Both the position numbers and the translations under genes were made by a program. Below are positions 215 through 20,736 of a DNA stretch of 20,736 bases, piece by piece. A model generated the notes under the pieces. It ran no database searches and was not told the origin of the DNA. It was given only the letters and a program-made list of their open reading frames with translations. The stretch comes from a virus. Numbering within the stretch: position 1 is the stretch's first letter; each line of letters opens with the position of its first letter. Where the stretch lies: the IMG/VR virus record IMGVR_UViG_3300026257_000033, positions 1 through 20,736 of that record; one strand, written 5' to 3'.

Positions 215-2700
215 GTAAAGAAACTCCCTAGTGTAATTTTTTTCTCGTGTGTCCAACCAACACAGTTTAGCACATTAATCAACGGATTCAAGAAACACTT
301 ATCAAACTGTCGCTGATAGTCCACGTACTTCTCCAAACCAAACTCAGTTGGAAGGTCACCAAAAAATGTGATGACATCCTCGTGTATAGGATTTGGAACC
401 TTGAGATAGATATATTTAATCTTCTCACCCTCTTGAATATAAGGGTGTTTATGTTCTATCTTATGTTTCTTAACATAATGATTGTATAGTAAAGCACCCC
501 TTACGTGGATGGGTGTTCCTTTACTGTAGATTTCTCTTGGGTGACTATATTTTGCGAGGTTGTTGACTCCTCGTGGGAATGCGACTTCTTCGTATGGTCG
601 ATTCCGTGTCTCTGTTCTGATCTCATTGATAAAAGAGATAAGTTCATCATTTGTTTTGCTGATAATGATCTTAAAAGCTGCATACAACTTGTCCCTAAAA
701 TACTGTGGTGTAGAAGACCTTGCAGTCTCCAGTCCCATGATTTTCATCTTGGGTTCTTTGTATCGAACTCCTTCTGAGTCCCACACGTTTAGTATGTATC
801 TTTTCTTGGCAGTCCATATACCTCTATCGGCAATGTTCTCCCTCTTCATGATCATCTTTTGGTCATACGCTGAAACATACGAAGCCAGCTCCTCATACGA
901 GGAGTCAATAAACGGTTCCAACTTATCTTGGCAGATCTTATCAAGTAAGGCCACGATCCTAGCCTTATCACTAGACTTATTACTAAAAAATTTATCAACA
1001 AGAGGTCCAAGATTAAGATAGATTGAGTCGGTATCTGATGCAATGACGTAATCTATGTCTCGACTTTGTAACAGTTTATTTAGGTACGCATTCATCTTAT
1101 TCTCTATCCAACGGATAGAAACCTGTCCCGACAAGGTGATTGCCTCAGCATTTGCAAGACGATAGTATCTAAAATGCTCGTTACCAATAGCACCATAAGC
1201 ACTGTTCAAAGAGATCTTCTTTGCCATCTGTATATTATTACAGCGAGCAATCTCTTTCACTAGATCATTACTAGGATTCTTTTCATACTCCTTCTTAGCC
1301 TCAATCATTTTCTTCTTGAAGATGACCCTAGAATCATACATCTTCTGCATCATCTGTGGTAAGAATCCATGCTTATCCTTCCTGTACTGTGCTCCATTAG
1401 CACATACAGCATACTCACCATCTATCTCAGTCTCTTTGTTTAGAATCCCTTCAACGCTCGCGCTGGCATGTCTAGTCTCCCAGAGGGTTTCTGGTGAGAT
1501 ATTGTACTGCATAATAAGGTGAGGGTAAAGGCTATTGAGGTCAAAATTAACAACCCAATCATAGCGTCCTGGTTTCGGTTCCTTGACATAAGCACCTGCG
1601 TACTGACGATCTTTAACTGCTTCTTTTTTAGGTGGTATTGCTACCTTACGTTTACTCAGTTCGTGATATATGTAGTTGTCCCACATACGAACTTGAGAGA
1701 AAACATCTTCATAATTAACCTTAGCATCATAAGCCATAGTGAATGCTAAGTCAATCAATTTCATCTTATCATCTAACTTGTCTACCAATCTAACATCATG
1801 TATGTTGTATTCAACAAACTTCTGCCAGTCATTCTCGTAGAACTCCTTAAATGTATCATACTCTGAGTGATCTAACTTCTTCTCATTTAACTCTACACTA
1901 CAAATATAATCTAACCTATAACTCTCTTGGTTTGAATAAGTAAACTTCTTATACAGATCATAATAATCCAGAGTAGATATACCTAATGTATCTACTGCCA
2001 TTTGCCTACGACCTTTAATATAGATCTCTCGTCTTGAAACTAATCTCCACGGAGAAAGAAGTTTAACTTGTTTCTCACCAAGTATCCTCTCAATACGATT
2101 AGCAATGTAAGGCATATCAAACAACTGCACATTCCACCCTGTAATTACATCAGGATAATTCTCCTGCCAGTAACCAAGAAATGCATTGAGCATTGCTTCT
2201 TCTGATCTGAAGTGCATATAATCCACTTGAGAATCATTGTTAACAAAAGGTCTTGCTCCCCATACAGTGATACGTTGTGTAAAACTATCCTTGATACTGA
2301 TAGCAAGGATCTCTTGATCTGCTGCTTCAATATTAGGAAAGCCGTTCTCTGCTGCGGTCTCAATGTCAATGTTAAAGACTCTTATCTTTGAAGTATCATA
2401 CTTAATCTCATCCTCTGGATGCTCCTCTGCCATATACTGATACAGGAACCTAGTATTACCATAGATATCAAAGTCTGGTACTTCCTTATACTGTTTAACA
2501 AATTCTCGGGCTTCCTTAATAGAACCAAACTTATGTGGTTCTACACAGTCACCTTCTAGAGTTCTCCATTCAGAGTAATTCTTTGAAGGCAAAAATAGCG
2601 TGGGGTTGAAAGGAACCCTCACGCTATATCTGTTACCATTTTCATAACCACGAACTAGCAAACGATTGCCAGCTTGTTCAACACTGGTATAGAACTTCAT
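211..2700 (-). CDS. 43: DNA polymerase gp43, family B
   Basis: This is the replicative DNA polymerase with 3'-5' proofreading exonuclease, 829 aa (T4 gp43 is 898). Exonuclease motifs are visible: DIE (D112, E114), the NVQLFD block (D195) and YNIHD (Y298, D302). Polymerase motifs follow: motif A DLNSLYP at 387-393, motif B KKISLNSAYG near 494-503, and motif C SDTDS at 555-559 with both catalytic aspartates. The last ten residues, KKITLGSFFT, resemble the C-terminal clamp-binding peptide of T4/RB69 polymerase, so it probably docks on gp45. The frame is uninterrupted, with no intron or split as seen in some T4-like phages. Its stop codon region overlaps the start of the following 59-aa gene, and its own start overlaps the end of the upstream Sm-like candidate by 4 bases (ATGA). 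Confidence 0.97.
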   Translation of the reverse strand: MKFYTSVEQAGNRLLVRGYENGNRYSVRVPFNPTLFLPSKNYSEWRTLEGDCVEPHKFGSIKEAREFVKQYKEVPDFDIYGNTRFLYQYMAEEHPEDEIKYDTSKIRVFNIDIETAAENGFPNIEAADQEILAISIKDSFTQRITVWGARPFVNNDSQVDYMHFRSEEAMLNAFLGYWQENYPDVITGWNVQLFDMPYIANRIERILGEKQVKLLSPWRLVSRREIYIKGRRQMAVDTLGISTLDYYDLYKKFTYSNQESYRLDYICSVELNEKKLDHSEYDTFKEFYENDWQKFVEYNIHDVRLVDKLDDKMKLIDLAFTMAYDAKVNYEDVFSQVRMWDNYIYHELSKRKVAIPPKKEAVKDRQYAGAYVKEPKPGRYDWVVNFDLNSLYPHLIMQYNISPETLWETRHASASVEGILNKETEIDGEYAVCANGAQYRKDKHGFLPQMMQKMYDSRVIFKKKMIEAKKEYEKNPSNDLVKEIARCNNIQMAKKISLNSAYGAIGNEHFRYYRLANAEAITLSGQVSIRWIENKMNAYLNKLLQSRDIDYVIASDTDSIYLNLGPLVDKFFSNKSSDKARIVALLDKICQDKLEPFIDSSYEELASYVSAYDQKMIMKRENIADRGIWTAKKRYILNVWDSEGVRYKEPKMKIMGLETARSSTPQYFRDKLYAAFKIIISKTNDELISFINEIRTETRNRPYEEVAFPRGVNNLAKYSHPREIYSKGTPIHVRGALLYNHYVKKHKIEHKHPYIQEGEKIKYIYLKVPNPIHEDVITFFGDLPTEFGLEKYVDYQRQFDKCFLNPLINVLNCVGWTHEKKITLGSFFT

Positions 2701-2999
2701 TCAGTCAACACTTCAGGATTAGATCCATAGTACCTAGAGAGAATATCTCTACCAGGCTCTATAAACGTTATTATATCAGAAGATCGCACAACTGTCTCCT
2801 TTTTGTCAGAGAAATGTAGCCAGTCTTTCAACTGTCCTTCAGGTGTGACCTCCATAGGATCTACAAGAATACAATCTGGGTCACCAAACTGTGCTCCTTC
2901 GATCTCTTCAACCTTCGCTAGTATCCACTGATGCTTCAGTAGAAGTATCTGTGGTATCGTCTGTTGTTGAATCGGTTCCTGCTGCTGGCTCTCCATCAT
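2697..2999 (-). CDS. Sm-like candidate protein, paralog 3 of 4 (100 aa)
   Basis: Small protein of unknown role, directly upstream of gp43 and overlapping it by 4 bases. After a Gln-rich N-terminus (residues 3-13) it has a strand-like block LLLKHQWILAKVEEI (19-33), an Asp-Pro at 47-48, and the block SDIITFIEPGRDILSRY (74-90). The neighbours at 2908-3345 and 3317-3706 and the gene at 19081-19503 show the same arrangement, so I treat the four as paralogs. An Sm/LSm-type beta barrel would fit the length and strand pattern, but that is inference. The start is supported by GAGG just upstream of the ATG pair. This start makes the gene overlap the previous one by 92 bases in another frame. The overlap appears real, because the first conserved block lies partly inside it. 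Confidence 0.72.
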   Translation of the reverse strand: MMESQQQEPIQQQTIPQILLLKHQWILAKVEEIEGAQFGDPDCILVDPMEVTPEGQLKDWLHFSDKKETVVRSSDIITFIEPGRDILSRYYGSNPEVLTE

Positions 3000-3345
3000 T
3001 TACCTCGAAGAATATTTGCTCATCTGATAGACCGATTTCATGCAGTCTACTTACATAATTATCTAGGATACCATTATCAGGGAAGACACATGTAAGAATG
3101 TGCTCACCACCAATACGGTGTTCTTCGATAGGACTAAATGGACACCACCTTTCATAGCGAATAGGAATGGTTCCGTCGTCTGGGTTCACATCACCAAGTG
3201 ATAATGTGTAAGGATATAACATCCTATACCCAATTACCTTTTCTTGATCTTCACTACGAACCTCTCCAAAGAGACATAAAACTCTTTCGCCAGTGGCGAG
3301 AGTTACGACCCTTGCATTATGATTCGTCTTCAGTTCGTTCTCCAC
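2908..3345 (-). CDS. Sm-like candidate protein, paralog 2 of 4 (145 aa, GTG start)
   Basis: Middle member of the tandem trio upstream of DNA polymerase. The core holds LATGERVLCLF (16-26), YPY (44-46), RWCPFSP (66-72) and HILTCVFPDNGILDNY (82-97), matching its neighbours block for block. Residues 119-145 form an acidic Thr/Ser/Asp-rich tail of low complexity; most of that tail is encoded in the DNA that also encodes the start of the next gene. The start is GTG at 3345, chosen because AGGAG (3353-3357) stands exactly 7 bases upstream and no ATG precedes the conserved core. It overlaps the preceding paralog by 29 bases. The function is unknown. A nucleic-acid-binding Sm-like role is plausible beside regA and gene 43 but is not shown by the sequence. 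Confidence 0.78.
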   Translation of the reverse strand: MENELKTNHNARVVTLATGERVLCLFGEVRSEDQEKVIGYRMLYPYTLSLGDVNPDDGTIPIRYERWCPFSPIEEHRIGGEHILTCVFPDNGILDNYVSRLHEIGLSDEQIFFEVNDGEPAAGTDSTTDDTTDTSTEASVDTSEG

Positions 3346-3706
3346 TATGCATCTCCTTTGTTAGTTTTAATGAGCTTTCTAATTCAACTTCACGTTTTTC
3401 TTTGATCTTTTGTTCGTATGATGTTTGCAATCCTGGTTCAGCATTGCTAATAGTCATAACTGCATCATAAGGCATTTTGAATTGCCAGTCAGAAGAATAA
3501 GGATTCCACTTGCTAAAGCGAACCTTATACTCAGAACCTAATTGCTCAGTAAGATACTGTGGTTCAGCGGTATCTAAGTGTAGGACGTATGGATCTTCCA
3601 TGAGAAGACATACTCCCTTCTTATTATCCCCCTCTCCATCATATATTTCCTTGAGTTCCGTGATAACACGTTCCCCAGTTCTTAGGGTAATTACTTGGCA
3701 GGCCAT
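3317..3706 (-). CDS. Sm-like candidate protein, paralog 1 of 4 (129 aa)
   Basis: First gene of the unit leading into DNA polymerase. The conserved blocks are LRTGERVITEL (8-18), DPY (38-40), FSKWNPYSSD (64-73) and VMTISNAEPGLQTSY (83-97). A charged, probably helical tail follows (98-129). There is no signal peptide or membrane segment. It is the clearest representative of the four-member family in this window. A strong promoter lies just upstream (-35 TTGACT, -10 TATACT) with only 20 bases between the -10 box and the ATG and no Shine-Dalgarno sequence, so this mRNA should have a very short leader. The family role is unknown to me. Strand spacing and size suggest an Sm-like fold, which is inference. 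Confidence 0.82.
   Translation of the reverse strand: MACQVITLRTGERVITELKEIYDGEGDNKKGVCLLMEDPYVLHLDTAEPQYLTEQLGSEYKVRFSKWNPYSSDWQFKMPYDAVMTISNAEPGLQTSYEQKIKEKREVELESSLKLTKEMHSGERTEDES
3353..3357 (-). promoter_or_regulatory. Ribosome binding site deciding a GTG start
   Basis: AGGAG on the minus strand ends 7 bases before the GTG at 3345. It fixes the start of the 145-aa Sm-like candidate, which has no suitable ATG. The site lies inside the coding end of the preceding paralog. Confidence 0.7.
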
Positions 3707-3726
3707 ATCGTATTCGCGCTGTGGTT

Positions 3727-3755
3727 AGTATAGCATTAAGAAACAGAAGAGTCAA
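3727..3755 (-). promoter_or_regulatory. Sigma70-type promoter for the Sm-like trio and gp43
   Basis: TTGACT (-35, 3755-3750), a 17-base spacer, and TATACT (-10, 3732-3727) preceded by TGC, giving an extended -10. This is a near-consensus host sigma70 promoter. It overlaps the last codons of hsp20. The predicted start of transcription, near 3720, leaves a leader of about 14 bases. Confidence 0.8.
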
Positions 3756-7446: not shown

Positions 7447-7631
7447 TAATAGAACCTCTGTCTAGCAACAGTTACCTGATCAAGCAACTCATTAATTGCT
7501 TCTGACATCTGACGATAACCAGATCCAACATACATCTGTCCTGCAAATACTGATACTGTTGCAGCACCCCAAAACAAATAATAGAATCTGGACTTAACCT
7601 GATGTCTTTGTTTCTTCTTTAGTTTAGTCAT
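7446..7631 (-). CDS. Small single-pass membrane protein (61 aa)
   Basis: A basic N-terminus (MTKLKKKQRHQVKSR) precedes one hydrophobic segment at about 16-37 (FYYLFWGAATVSVFAGQMYVG), then an amphipathic tail. The charge pattern predicts the N-terminus in the cytoplasm. I recall near-identical proteins in other marine cyanophages but know no function. It overlaps the upstream oxygenase gene by 8 bases and shares TAATG with the methylase below, so it is part of the coupled operon. With the 74-aa protein before gp62 it is the second small membrane protein within the replication genes. Confidence 0.82.
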   Translation of the reverse strand: MTKLKKKQRHQVKSRFYYLFWGAATVSVFAGQMYVGSGYRQMSEAINELLDQVTVARQRFY

Positions 7632-8322
7632 ACTTATTCACCACTATGTTCGTTGTTAGTACAATCCGTTCCTCGTCACTATCACTAGATTCACATCCAT
7701 GTGTGACGTGTCCCGGAAAGATTAGATAATCACCTGTCTCTACAGGAATGGTTAACGGATTCTGTTTATGACTGTAACTAATCTTAGTACTGTCACTATT
7801 CAATACAGCAGTATTCATACCTCCAGATGGTTCAACCATAAAGTTACCACTGTTATCTGGATGATTCAAATAATAAGCACAGACATAATCAACAATTCCG
7901 TGATCATGTGGTAGTGTTCTAGCACCTCTATAATGAACATTAAACCATGATCTATCTATCAAAAAGAACTTATCTTCTGTTCTCTGTCTGTCCTGTAAAT
8001 CAACACTATGAAATCCTGTATCAAATACAGGACTAAGCATATGACTAGGAACACGAGTTCGATCATTCACTCTAAAATGAATGAACTGTAAATCATTATA
8101 CAACTGTTTGTAAAATGGTGCAAGCTCTTCTATCCTATGTGGACGATACCTATCATAACCAACTGTAGAAAATGCATCACCCTCCTCTAAAGGAGATTGA
8201 ATCTGTCCACTACATTGATCTTTTATTAATGATAGATTCTGTTTTATCTCACCATAACTTTTAGGACGATCAAGATGACCTTTCCAAATATATGGGGTAT
8301 CAATGTTTATAGCATCAATCAT
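7624..8322 (-). CDS. 2OG-Fe(II) oxygenase-like protein (232 aa)
   Basis: Predicted non-heme iron dioxygenase that would use 2-oxoglutarate and O2. The C-terminal half carries the likely metal site: LPHDHGIVDYVCAYYL (137-152) with His139/Asp140/His141, then SGNFMVEP (158-165), GDYLIFPGHVTHGC (197-210) with His205 and His208, and Arg219, which may bind 2-oxoglutarate. The N-terminal 120 residues are not recognised. Such oxygenases are frequent in cyanophages, and their substrates are mostly unknown. Its ATG overlaps the stop of gp44 by 4 bases, so it is made with the clamp loader. Possible substrates include a protein side chain or a modified base. I cannot choose between them. Confidence 0.8.
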   Translation of the reverse strand: MIDAINIDTPYIWKGHLDRPKSYGEIKQNLSLIKDQCSGQIQSPLEEGDAFSTVGYDRYRPHRIEELAPFYKQLYNDLQFIHFRVNDRTRVPSHMLSPVFDTGFHSVDLQDRQRTEDKFFLIDRSWFNVHYRGARTLPHDHGIVDYVCAYYLNHPDNSGNFMVEPSGGMNTAVLNSDSTKISYSHKQNPLTIPVETGDYLIFPGHVTHGCESSDSDEERIVLTTNIVVNKYD

Positions 8323-9263
8323 CTGAATTCACAACTCATCATAATTTCGGTTAAACAAGCAAGCATATTAATTTCATGATCAGCCACGACAGTAGCATCT
8401 TTCATATACCTTGCTATTATAAGAACTGCTTCCGGGATTGAAGCAGGTTTAAGAACAGTGTATGTACTATCATATATCTTACGAAAGATAGTGGTGGGAT
8501 CATTATCCATATGTTGCACCACCCAATTCTTTACTGTCTTAAAATCTTTCTGCTTCAACGCCGAAAGAAGACTATCAAAATTAACATCAGCAACATCAAC
8601 GAGAATAGCTGAGTCAATGGCTCCAGTAGCAGAATAGCGTTGACACTCATTGATAAGCCTACGCCAGTCAGGATAATACCTCCTAATAAGCTTAGCCAAA
8701 ACCTTATCTTCAAATTTAACATCTTCTTTTTTTAATATACCTCTAAGTCTTTCAAAGAATTGACCTTGTAATTGTACAGACTGTTCATTCTTAATACGAA
8801 AATCAACCACAGTACATCTTGAATGCAGTGGTTCGATAATCTTGTTTATAAAATTACAGGTAAGAATGAATCTACAATTGTTATGATACTCCTCTATAGC
8901 AGACCTGAGACACAATTGAACATCGTTGGTCGTGTTATCTGCTTCATCTATAATGACGACCTTGTGGGACGTTCCAGAGGTCAGTGAGACTGTTGTAGCA
9001 AACTGACGTATCTTGTTTCTAGCAGTCTCCAAGAACCTACCCTCATCTGATCCATTGATCAGAATATATGATGCACCGATCTGATCACAAAGAGCTTTCG
9101 CAATAGTGGTCTTACCAACACCAGCAGATCCAGTAAGTAAAAGATTAGGTAGTTCACCTTGACTGACGAATCCCTCAAATACCTTCTTGATAGTTTCTGG
9201 TAGAATACAATCATCAACTTTCGTTGGACGGTACTTCTCTACCCATAAAAATTCTTTACTCAT
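8319..9263 (-). CDS. 44: Clamp loader large subunit gp44 (AAA+ ATPase)
   Basis: The ATPase subunit of the clamp loader, 314 aa (T4 gp44 is 319). It begins with the FLWVEKYRPTKVDD signature of clamp loaders. Walker A is GSAGVGKT (45-52), Walker B VVIIDEAD (102-109), and sensor 1 lies near FILTCN (132-137). The arginine-finger motif SRC is at 148-150. The C-terminal part is the collar helix bundle. It loads gp45 together with gp62, which here lies more than 3 kb further on, because two oxygenases, a methylase, PurN and small genes have been inserted. The start shares ATGAGTAA with the stop of the oxygenase above. Confidence 0.97.
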   Translation of the reverse strand: MSKEFLWVEKYRPTKVDDCILPETIKKVFEGFVSQGELPNLLLTGSAGVGKTTIAKALCDQIGASYILINGSDEGRFLETARNKIRQFATTVSLTSGTSHKVVIIDEADNTTNDVQLCLRSAIEEYHNNCRFILTCNFINKIIEPLHSRCTVVDFRIKNEQSVQLQGQFFERLRGILKKEDVKFEDKVLAKLIRRYYPDWRRLINECQRYSATGAIDSAILVDVADVNFDSLLSALKQKDFKTVKNWVVQHMDNDPTTIFRKIYDSTYTVLKPASIPEAVLIIARYMKDATVVADHEINMLACLTEIMMSCEFR

Positions 9264-9852
9264 TATCTAAACTCAGGTTGAAGGAGAATGTCATACGCAT
9301 TGTAGCACTGGTAGATGGTTCTACGCAATGCTCTAGGTACGGTGGGAAAAGTATCACATCCCCATCCTTGATATCAGGTTTCAAGGTGTCAGCAAAATAC
9401 TCTTGGAATACATTGCTTTGATGTGGGAACTTATGAATCCTGTTGTTATTATCAGGACGCATAAAGGTTGTTGGAGTTGATCCTTTGTGGTAATAGATAC
9501 CACACCAATAAGGATTCTTTCTCATACAACCATTAAGATGTGTATGTGGTTCCTGTCCCTGTGTATCATGGTAGATATTATACCAAAAACTATCGTACTT
9601 AAATTTGTCTGGTATATTATTCTCAGCAAAGACATATTGTATCTGCTGTTTTAAATCTGCCATGAGGCTGTCTCTTATTTGAGGAGAGACAATTGGATCA
9701 ACATCTGTAATGTTAGGGAAACTAGAATTGACAGATGTAGTCCACCCTTTAGGTCTTCTATCAAGCTTCTCTGTATCAGCAATATTATACTTACTATGGT
9801 AATCAAACCTGAACGTGATTAATGGTACAAAGAAAACCTGATGTAATTGCAT
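9256..9852 (-). CDS. 2OG-Fe(II) oxygenase-like protein (198 aa), putative 2OG-FeII_Oxy_5 type
   Basis: Predicted dioxygenase of the short type found widely in marine phages. Residues 84-125 contain the WYNIY strand, then EPHTHL (101-106) supplying His103/His105, then WCGIYY (116-121). GDVILFPPYLEHCVEPS (164-180) gives the distal His175, and MRMTFSFNL (185-193) gives Arg186, a likely 2-oxoglutarate ligand. The substrate is unknown. The gene is locked between gp45 (TAATG overlap) and gp44 (8-base overlap). Beyond the jelly-roll motifs I see no close resemblance to the 232-aa oxygenase on the other side of gp44, so they are probably not recent duplicates. Confidence 0.82.
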   Translation of the reverse strand: MQLHQVFFVPLITFRFDYHSKYNIADTEKLDRRPKGWTTSVNSSFPNITDVDPIVSPQIRDSLMADLKQQIQYVFAENNIPDKFKYDSFWYNIYHDTQGQEPHTHLNGCMRKNPYWCGIYYHKGSTPTTFMRPDNNNRIHKFPHQSNVFQEYFADTLKPDIKDGDVILFPPYLEHCVEPSTSATMRMTFSFNLSLDNE

Positions 9853-19080: not shown

Positions 19081-19503
19081 TTAGCTTTTTTTATAGATAC
19101 TCTCTAAGTTCTTCTTGGTTTCCATTATAGAACCCAGATATCCAGATTCTCTAGAGAGTTTTGATCCCTTGCTTTGTGGACCTTTACCAGCATTTATTCT
19201 TTGGATGGTTACTTCATAGAAGTTTTTAATATGATCATCCAATTCTGTGCAAGTAATAATATGAGATCTATTAATGATGTACATATCTTCAAAGGATGCA
19301 GCAACCCACTCTTTGAGAGAGAACCCTGCAATTTCTAAGTTACCTTTTCTAGTACGAGCAGACTCTACCTGTAGAGGATTCTCCAGAATAACTTTATCGT
19401 CTTCAGGAAGATAGCACACTTTTGCTATGACCTCTTCACCAGAGATCAATTTTAGAGTTGCGAAGAACTCTTCTTCTGCTAGGTTTAAATCTGGTTCTGT
19501 CAT
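19081..19503 (-). CDS. Sm-like candidate protein, paralog 4 of 4 (140 aa), coupled to uvsW
   Basis: Unknown function. It carries the blocks of the trio upstream of gp43: LISGEEVIAKV (19-29), ENPLQV (41-46), and SHIITCTELDDHIKNFY (80-96). It then has a basic Gly/Lys/Ser-rich tail (105-140) that the others lack. The start overlaps the UvsW stop by 4 bases (ATGA), so both are made from one message. Its position beside a recombination helicase, and that of its paralogs beside DNA polymerase, suggest a role in nucleic-acid metabolism. The Sm-like fold is inferred from length and strand pattern only. Confidence 0.8.
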   Translation of the reverse strand: MTEPDLNLAEEEFFATLKLISGEEVIAKVCYLPEDDKVILENPLQVESARTRKGNLEIAGFSLKEWVAASFEDMYIINRSHIITCTELDDHIKNFYEVTIQRINAGKGPQSKGSKLSRESGYLGSIMETKKNLESIYKKS

Positions 19504-20736
19504 CTCAGGTTAACTCTGATTACTTCGTATTTAAAATTCTCATCATTGTAGATGTTTACTCTTTCATTAAGATGTTTAAGAGTATAATTTTGTCCACCAA
19601 TATCATCTGCGATATCATATAGTGTTGCTATATCTTTTCCTTCCCCGCGGCGAAGGACTCTACCAATGCTTTGGAGGTTTCTAATTCTGGATTTACTGGG
19701 GCTTGCGAACACGATATTGTGAAGACGCTTAATATTGATACCAGTACTAAAAGTACCATAGGACGCGACGATGATTGCATTTGATTCTTGCTCTGTAATT
19801 TGACGGACCTCTTCACGATCCTCAACATCTACCCCACCATGAACGAAAAACGTTTTGCGCGATGATGTTACAGAATTATTTATTAAATCGAAAAGTGGTT
19901 CTCCGTGCTTCTCGACATAGTTAAATAGTACTAGAGTGTTACCAGTCAGATCTTTAACTAAATTTTTAATAAGGTTATTTCTGGCAGTATGTTCAACAAG
20001 ATAATCTATCTCTTCATGAAAAGACTCGAAGTGTGCAGGGTCATGCTTACACAACAATATCTTGATCCTAAATTCCGATAGGTATCCAGACTTGATTAAA
20101 TCATCAGTCTTTGTTACTCTATCACAAGAACCAAAGAGTCCTTCCAACACCCACTTATGCGTTTTACTTCCATCCAATGTACCAGTGAAACCAAATCTAT
20201 ATTTCGCATTATGAAGTTTCGTCATTATTCCTGTTAATGATTTAGACTTAAAGAGGTGAGCTTCATCACCTATAACACAATCTATATCATCAAAGTATCT
20301 CTTAGGAAATTTGTATATAGATTGCCACGTTGAAATAATAACATTTTTATTAGTATTTTTATCCTTCCCACCATATATCTTATGAACATGAGCATCCGCA
20401 CTCCATCCGTAGTCACTGAAGTCATTGACCATTTGCTCCACAAGGGAAGTAGTTGGCACGATTATAAGTATCTTCTTTGCGGTGGCGCAATAGTATCTGA
20501 CGAGGGCGTAGATCATAAGAGACTTCCCAGACCCCGTAGGAGAAAGAAGTAGCTTACGGTTCATTCGTATTGCTTCATGCACTGCACGATACTGGTAGTC
20601 TCTAGGTTTAACCTTAGAGATCTTATCCATAAAAACTTTTATTGCAGGTAAAGAAGCGAATTCATTTACCTCACGTATATCACCATACCATTCATCGTTT
20701 TCTATATGGAGTTTGTAGTCTCGCTCCTGAACGAAA
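19500..20736 (-). CDS. uvsW: UvsW helicase (5' end outside window)
   Basis: Superfamily 2 helicase that remodels branched DNA and removes R-loops, moving T4 to recombination-dependent replication. An ATG lies at 20630, but the frame stays open to the window edge (35 more codons). T4 UvsW (about 587 aa) has a longer N-terminal domain, so the true start is outside. Numbering from that ATG: Q-motif-like RDYQYRAVHEA (10-20), Walker A PTGSGKS (31-37), DEAH (122-125), motif III TGT (149-151), a Gly-rich motif V region near YGTFSTGINI, and motif VI QSIGRVLRRGEGK. The catalytic core is complete. It is coupled to the Sm-like candidate below by ATGA. Confidence 0.95.
   Translation of the reverse strand, partial: FVQERDYKLHIENDEWYGDIREVNEFASLPAIKVFMDKISKVKPRDYQYRAVHEAIRMNRKLLLSPTGSGKSLMIYALVRYYCATAKKILIIVPTTSLVEQMVNDFSDYGWSADAHVHKIYGGKDKNTNKNVIISTWQSIYKFPKRYFDDIDCVIGDEAHLFKSKSLTGIMTKLHNAKYRFGFTGTLDGSKTHKWVLEGLFGSCDRVTKTDDLIKSGYLSEFRIKILLCKHDPAHFESFHEEIDYLVEHTARNNLIKNLVKDLTGNTLVLFNYVEKHGEPLFDLINNSVTSSRKTFFVHGGVDVEDREEVRQITEQESNAIIVASYGTFSTGINIKRLHNIVFASPSKSRIRNLQSIGRVLRRGEGKDIATLYDIADDIGGQNYTLKHLNERVNIYNDENFKYEVIRVNLR

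Follow-up and report, generated by a model that had tools for sequence, protein, structure and literature searches.

The window, a 20.7 kb stretch of DNA (20,736 bp) from a marine cyanobacterial virus, has the gene order of the T4-like cyanophages. On the minus strand the order is gp62, regA, and hsp20, then three small genes, termed here SmA, SmB, and SmC, and then gp43, the DNA polymerase gene. SmA (3317–3706) encodes an Sm/LSm-like protein of 129 residues that belongs to PHROG 431 and the T4-GC 176 group. SmB (2908–3345) starts with GTG and encodes a 145-residue Sm/LSm-like paralogue with an acidic Thr/Ser/Asp tail. SmC (2697–2999) encodes 100 residues, again Sm/LSm-like, of the DUF6561 family, PHROG 483, and the T4-GC 177/417 group. 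gp43 extends from 211 to 2700. A fourth gene, SmD (19081–19503, minus strand), encodes a 140-residue Sm_like protein and is flanked by the uvsW helicase gene (19500–20630, minus strand) and the late sigma factor gene, gene 55. An earlier note on this DNA had placed the three small ORFs and the fourth copy correctly. It also described the trio as consecutive and beside regA; the trio does lie ahead of gp43, but hsp20 separates it from regA, and SmB overlaps both of its neighbors.

The overlaps are 29 nt for SmA/SmB, 92 nt for SmB/SmC, and 4 nt for SmC/gp43, where the SmC stop and the gp43 start codon share ATGA. The uvsW stop likewise overlaps the SmD start by 4 nt. Of 244 distinct junctions between SmC and gp43, 96% have such a stop–start overlap, of either 4 or 1 nt. 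Elsewhere in the replication cluster, gp44 is flanked by two ORFs (7624–8322 and 9256–9852, minus strand) that by eye look oxygenase-like.

A sigma-70-like promoter, TTGACT-17-TATACT, is found at 3727–3755 on the minus strand, within the end of hsp20 and 20 nt ahead of the SmA start. The site is credible not from the scan alone but because its spacing and its distance to the SmA start are kept in relatives. That is, among about 210 distinct upstream regions, most keep the 17-nt spacer and 20–23 nt to SmA while the hexamers drift, and in P-HM1-type phages the promoter is often a perfect TTGACA-17-TATAAT. Its score is among the best of the scan, but sigma-70-like sites in the region are no more numerous than in shuffled sequence. 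The added claim that the promoter shows the trio to be expressed as one unit with the polymerase goes too far, as a promoter alone is no proof; the ORF overlaps and RNA-seq of phage S-PM2 do point there. Under phosphate limitation, S-PM2d131 and S-PM2d132 rise with gp43, uvsX, gp41, and mazG (PMC10976474). By gene order and T4-GC numbers, these two are the orthologues of SmA and SmC; S-PM2 is another phage, having a pair rather than a trio.

Four Sm-like paralogues

Comparison of the sequences supports the view that SmA, SmB, SmC, and SmD are paralogues of one family. The phrog_431 profile alone matches all four window proteins (9e-38, 5e-31, 8e-6, and 3e-4), and the individual PHROG assignments are phrog_431 for SmA (1.7e-34) and SmB (6e-29), PHROG 483 for SmC, and phrog_471 for SmD (2.7e-38). 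Profile–profile comparison of separate family alignments with hhalign, a check proposed in the earlier note, also links the four, with E-values of 1e-16 for A–B, 1e-11 for A–C, 2e-9 for A–D, 5e-8 for B–C, and 5e-7 for C–D; B–D is the weakest pair (3e-4, probability 39%). The shared sequence blocks that had drawn attention to these genes are thus beyond chance. The best-supported blocks in SmA are V-x-x-L-[KR]-x-G-[ED]-x-[VI]-I, W-x-P-[YLF]-[ST], and [VI]-x-[TAS]-I-x-x-P followed about 8 residues later by Y, the last of which is the best kept in SmB, SmC, and SmD. In a tree of the Sm domains, B, C, D, and PHROG 527 form supported groups, SmB being a clade of its own (support 98/99), and A falls into several sub-groups. 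The deep order of the tree is unsure because only 101 columns were available.

Pfam recognizes the family in part. SmD scores over the cut-off of the Sm_like model PF16243 (34.8 bits vs 29.4); SmA, SmB, and SmC all fall short of that model. SmC is a full member of PF20198, DUF6561 (76.8 bits against a cut-off of 27; 1.4e-21); SmA scores 20.8 bits, under that cut-off, and SmB is without any Pfam match. None of the four matches the general Pfam LSm models, and a Pfam search up to E = 1 gave no match to the Hfq family. An Sm1-like L-K-x-G is found in SmA (G11 in 68/76 sequences) and an Sm2-like [VI]-R-S in SmC (R72 in 37/59, S73 in 58/59).

By sequence, convincing relatives in the PDB are limited to 3BY7, an Sm/LSm-like ocean protein (JCVI_PEP_1096686650277), and TIP60, an engineered fusion derived from it. 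In single-sequence searches, SmC matches 3BY7 at 1.2e-4 and SmA matches TIP60 at 0.003. In profile searches, 3BY7 is the best PDB match of all four proteins (1e-8 for SmA; only 0.016 for SmB). AlphaFold2 models of SmA (pLDDT 84, 76 sequences) and SmC (pLDDT 85, 59 sequences) are alike, each predicted to be a five-stranded bent LSm barrel with a C-terminal helix. The top Foldseek matches of both models are again 3BY7 and TIP60 (E 1e-5 to 5e-4), with TMt to 3BY7 of 0.82–0.89 for SmA and 0.75–0.80 for SmC. The second tier consists nearly throughout of Sm/LSm chains, from spliceosomes, Lsm rings, and archaeal SmAPs, at a probability near 1 and E 0.004–0.04; all PDB matches listed beyond 3BY7 and TIP60 are Sm/LSm chains or complexes holding them, including two chains of NatC complexes. 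No Hfq is among the Foldseek matches listed for the two models, and the bacterial protein is a functional analogy only.

The sequences of SmA, SmC, and SmD therefore support an Sm/LSm fold, as do the profile of SmB and the predicted structures of SmA and SmC. The barrel suggested in the earlier note is thus supported, and the two predicted structures have not come out as unrelated. Its pointer to a structurally described Sm-like protein of putative cyanophage origin was also right, because 3BY7 is the top match by both sequence and model. Identity between 3BY7 and the window proteins is only about 20%. In the tree, 3BY7 lies outside groups A, B, C, and D and close to the PHROG 527 copies; of all sequences from the loci, it matches one of these copies best. 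The resemblance to eukaryotic Sm/Lsm proteins and archaeal SmAPs lies in the second-tier structural matches and in the expansion of paralogues within one organism, but the phage proteins lack a sequence match to them, carry the extra helix, and are acidic.

The acidity is general. SmA to SmD have pI values of about 4.25–5.15, whereas RegA, gp62, gp55, and UvsW are basic, and in relatives the median core net charge of the groups is -5 to -9. This argues against an ordinary Hfq-like surface or a ring that binds RNA simply through basic charge. It does not decide the matter of RNA binding, since Sm proteins are able to hold bases in their pore with only a few charges.

The phage Sm_like fold family itself is already known, as Pfam Sm_like, and cyanomyophages were earlier stated to carry Sm/Lsm RNA-binding proteins (PMC7029224). 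What is new here, as far as the literature searched shows, is that DUF6561 (SmC), which had no named fold in the libraries searched, and PHROG 431 (SmA and SmB) belong to that family. The SmD orthologues, in PHROG 471 and cyanophage records, are widely labeled "methylamine utilization protein", which is likely a misannotation.

Distribution and origin of the copies

Ten complete phage records were surveyed: eight cyanophages, HTVC008M, and T4. A, C, and D are present in all eight cyanophages, and the total of Sm-like copies per cyanophage ranges from 3 to 5. S-RSM4 has five, namely A, B, C, D, and one at 153.6 kb. Syn9 and S-MbCM100 carry an additional PHROG 527 copy; that of Syn9 lies between gp44 and dam/gp62 (133396–133692; L526:1897-2193). 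In S-CREM2, Sm-like ORFs lie at 21.65, 22.06, 29.2, and 123.5 kb, and the deposited record names the one at 123.5 kb an Sm-like RNA-binding protein. In HTVC008M, D alone was found. T4 has no Sm-like gene, and there is nothing between its regA and gp43.

With few exceptions, the array across loci reads g62-regA-hsp20-A-[B or second A-like]-C-g43. Two or three Sm-like genes adjoin gp43, depending on the phage; the extra member is ahead of A in P-HM1-type arrays and after A in the trio. T4-GC 530 of P-HM1, which lies inside the array, was considered as a further Sm-like gene and rejected, as its sequence looks unrelated by reading and is missed by the Sm profiles.

The SmD of the window occupies the place usual for PHROG 471. 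The order uvsW-SmD-g55 is common to cyanophages, HTVC008M, and Sinorhizobium phage phiM12, in which the 4-nt overlap is identical and SmD is the only copy found. The phiM12 gene (22410–22769; L540:3911-4270) is unnamed. Because phiM12 has SmD too, we infer that the copy beside uvsW is ancestral and that the gp43-side copies are later. The latter would stem from duplication of an SmD-like gene, with a subsequent split into A, B, and C. Among the structures of a viral model library, the SmA fold occurs in many cyanophages and in BcepSauron, phiRSL1, phiM12, Atu_ph07, and IME-SM1, nearly always in proteins without a name. One Sm-like query (A1), run against bacterial and archaeal genomes, yielded no confirmed relative.

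RNA structure at the SmC–gp43 junction

Two RNA hairpins are predicted at the junction, both on the minus strand. Hairpin II (2723–2766) lies in the 3′ part of SmC, about 23–66 nt ahead of the gp43 start. A longer hairpin (2588–2637) covers codons 22–38 of gp43. Folding windows were compared with a null of synonymous-codon shuffles that used the codon usage of each locus. In trio-type phages, the excess structure in SmC lies about -93 to -55 and -57 to -22 relative to its stop, with a mean of up to -4.7 kcal/mol (n = 31); in gp43, the excess is at about +66 to +114, with a mean of about -12.6. Windows in regA, hsp20, SmA, and SmB never fall below -2.3. The effect sizes are to be preferred to the t values, which are inflated; the search was exploratory, and the loci are related.

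Of the 7 pairs of hairpin II, a mean of 6.0 are formed, compared with 3.81 (sd 0.19) under the null. In the alignment of the gp43 hairpin, paired cells amount to 91.4%, a figure that leans upward since the rows were picked for good folding; slid controls give 36–45%. Five pairs of this hairpin have compensatory changes on both sides. Its covariance model is found only at the gp43 start in S-RSM4, ACG-2014e, and ACG-2014i, with weaker matches in S-PM2 and Sf-FP1 that are partly due to protein conservation. Outside trio-type phages, strong hairpins are limited to some relatives. Directly upstream of hairpin II, many relatives have a second hairpin, in some with a UUCG loop (e.g., L017:859-989). 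No Rfam family or tRNA is found in the window. The gp43 hairpin was rejected as an intrinsic terminator: the U run is broken in many relatives, and the outer stem takes up part of it. The structure signal at the junction may reflect a role at the DNA level.

T4 provides a precedent, in that a hairpin about 40 nt ahead of the gp43 AUG lets the protein repress its own mRNA (PMC3014915). Hairpin II occupies the place of that operator. In contrast to T4, the predicted hairpin here is inside the SmC gene, and a second, larger one is inside gp43. The tandem expansion, the tight coupling to gp43, and the junction hairpins appear to be undescribed in the literature searched.

Possible roles of the Sm-like proteins

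Our preferred reading, held tentatively at a probability of about 0.45, is that Sm/LSm-like rings, possibly mixed from A, B, and C, act on early and replication mRNAs and tune polymerase output. By analogy with the relative 3BY7, used as a five-fold assembly, SmA to SmD would form small rings. A, B, and C, made together through translational coupling, may assemble as mixed rings. The rings may then work alongside RegA on early and replication mRNAs, as RNA chaperones or as regulators, and the structured SmC–gp43 junction would be the most likely local target; these last two steps are the least certain. In favor of the overall reading are the shared family and fold, the kept gene order, overlaps, and promoter, the co-regulation in S-PM2, the RNA structure at the junction, and the absence of Sm-like ORFs from the S-CREM2 virion list. 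Counting against it are the acidity of all four proteins, the lack of a match to the general Pfam LSm models, and the limited range of phages with strong hairpins.

Instead of RNA, the proteins may bind protein. They could belong to the replisome as LSm-fold modules, in the form of acidic rings or subunits contacting gp43, UvsW, or clamp-loader proteins. The acidic cores, the fixed places beside gp43 and uvsW, the location of the extra Syn9 copy, and the co-regulation with replication genes in S-PM2 (PMC10976474) would all fit. Yet T4 replicates without any Sm-like protein, and the known members of the Sm fold mostly bind RNA. We place this reading on the unlikely side.

Nor need the paralogues mix. 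Separate homomeric rings with distinct targets, the outcome of neofunctionalization, would suit the old, well-separated paralogue groups and a SmD that is encoded elsewhere and stands alone in HTVC008M and phiM12. The relatives point the same way: TIP60 is a homo-oligomer with a five-fold assembly, and 3BY7 holds five copies of one chain. On the other side, subunits that assemble together would be expected to come from overlapping, co-expressed genes, as A, B, and C do, though this is not proof; we regard purely homomeric rings as rather unlikely. The preferred reading, for its part, does not need a fixed hetero-ring, because the gp43-side array holds two or three Sm-like genes, and a requirement for a fixed five-subunit hetero-ring is ruled out by the copy number of 3 to 5 among cyanophages. 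Its boldest form, a heteromeric SmA/SmB/SmC LSm ring that arose independently of the eukaryotic hetero-rings, binds the junction hairpins, and sets DNA polymerase synthesis, is improbable.

Less probable still is that the small ORFs mainly serve gp43 in cis, translation of SmC opening the RNA structure and coupling gp43 initiation, with the proteins secondary. The near-constant stop–start overlap, the hairpins exceeding synonymous nulls on either side of the gp43 start, and the T4 operator hairpin (PMC3014915) are in keeping with it, but the Sm-like proteins are conserved as proteins, other arrays have them without such hairpins, and SmD has no gp43 link. A place as minor virion components, for which one could cite the suggestion that the neighboring Hsp20 assists capsid maturation (PMC3037559), can practically be dismissed. 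The genes belong to the replication cluster, and the virion proteome of S-CREM2, a list of 52 proteins in which small ones can be missed, includes none of that phage's four Sm-like ORFs (PMC10665884). In that list, the homologs have thus not turned out to be virion parts, an outcome that the earlier note had named as a refutation.

In the sea, cyanophages of this kind count among the most abundant viruses. Sm-like genes are widespread in them and are mostly labeled hypothetical or misnamed. With PHROG 431, PHROG 483, and DUF6561 recognized as Sm/LSm-like, hundreds of phage genes acquire a fold and a role that can be tested, and the conserved RNA structure around the gp43 start is a ready target for such tests. 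If the tandem copies do mix in rings, these phages would have taken the step from homomer to heteromer independently, as occurred in the spliceosome.
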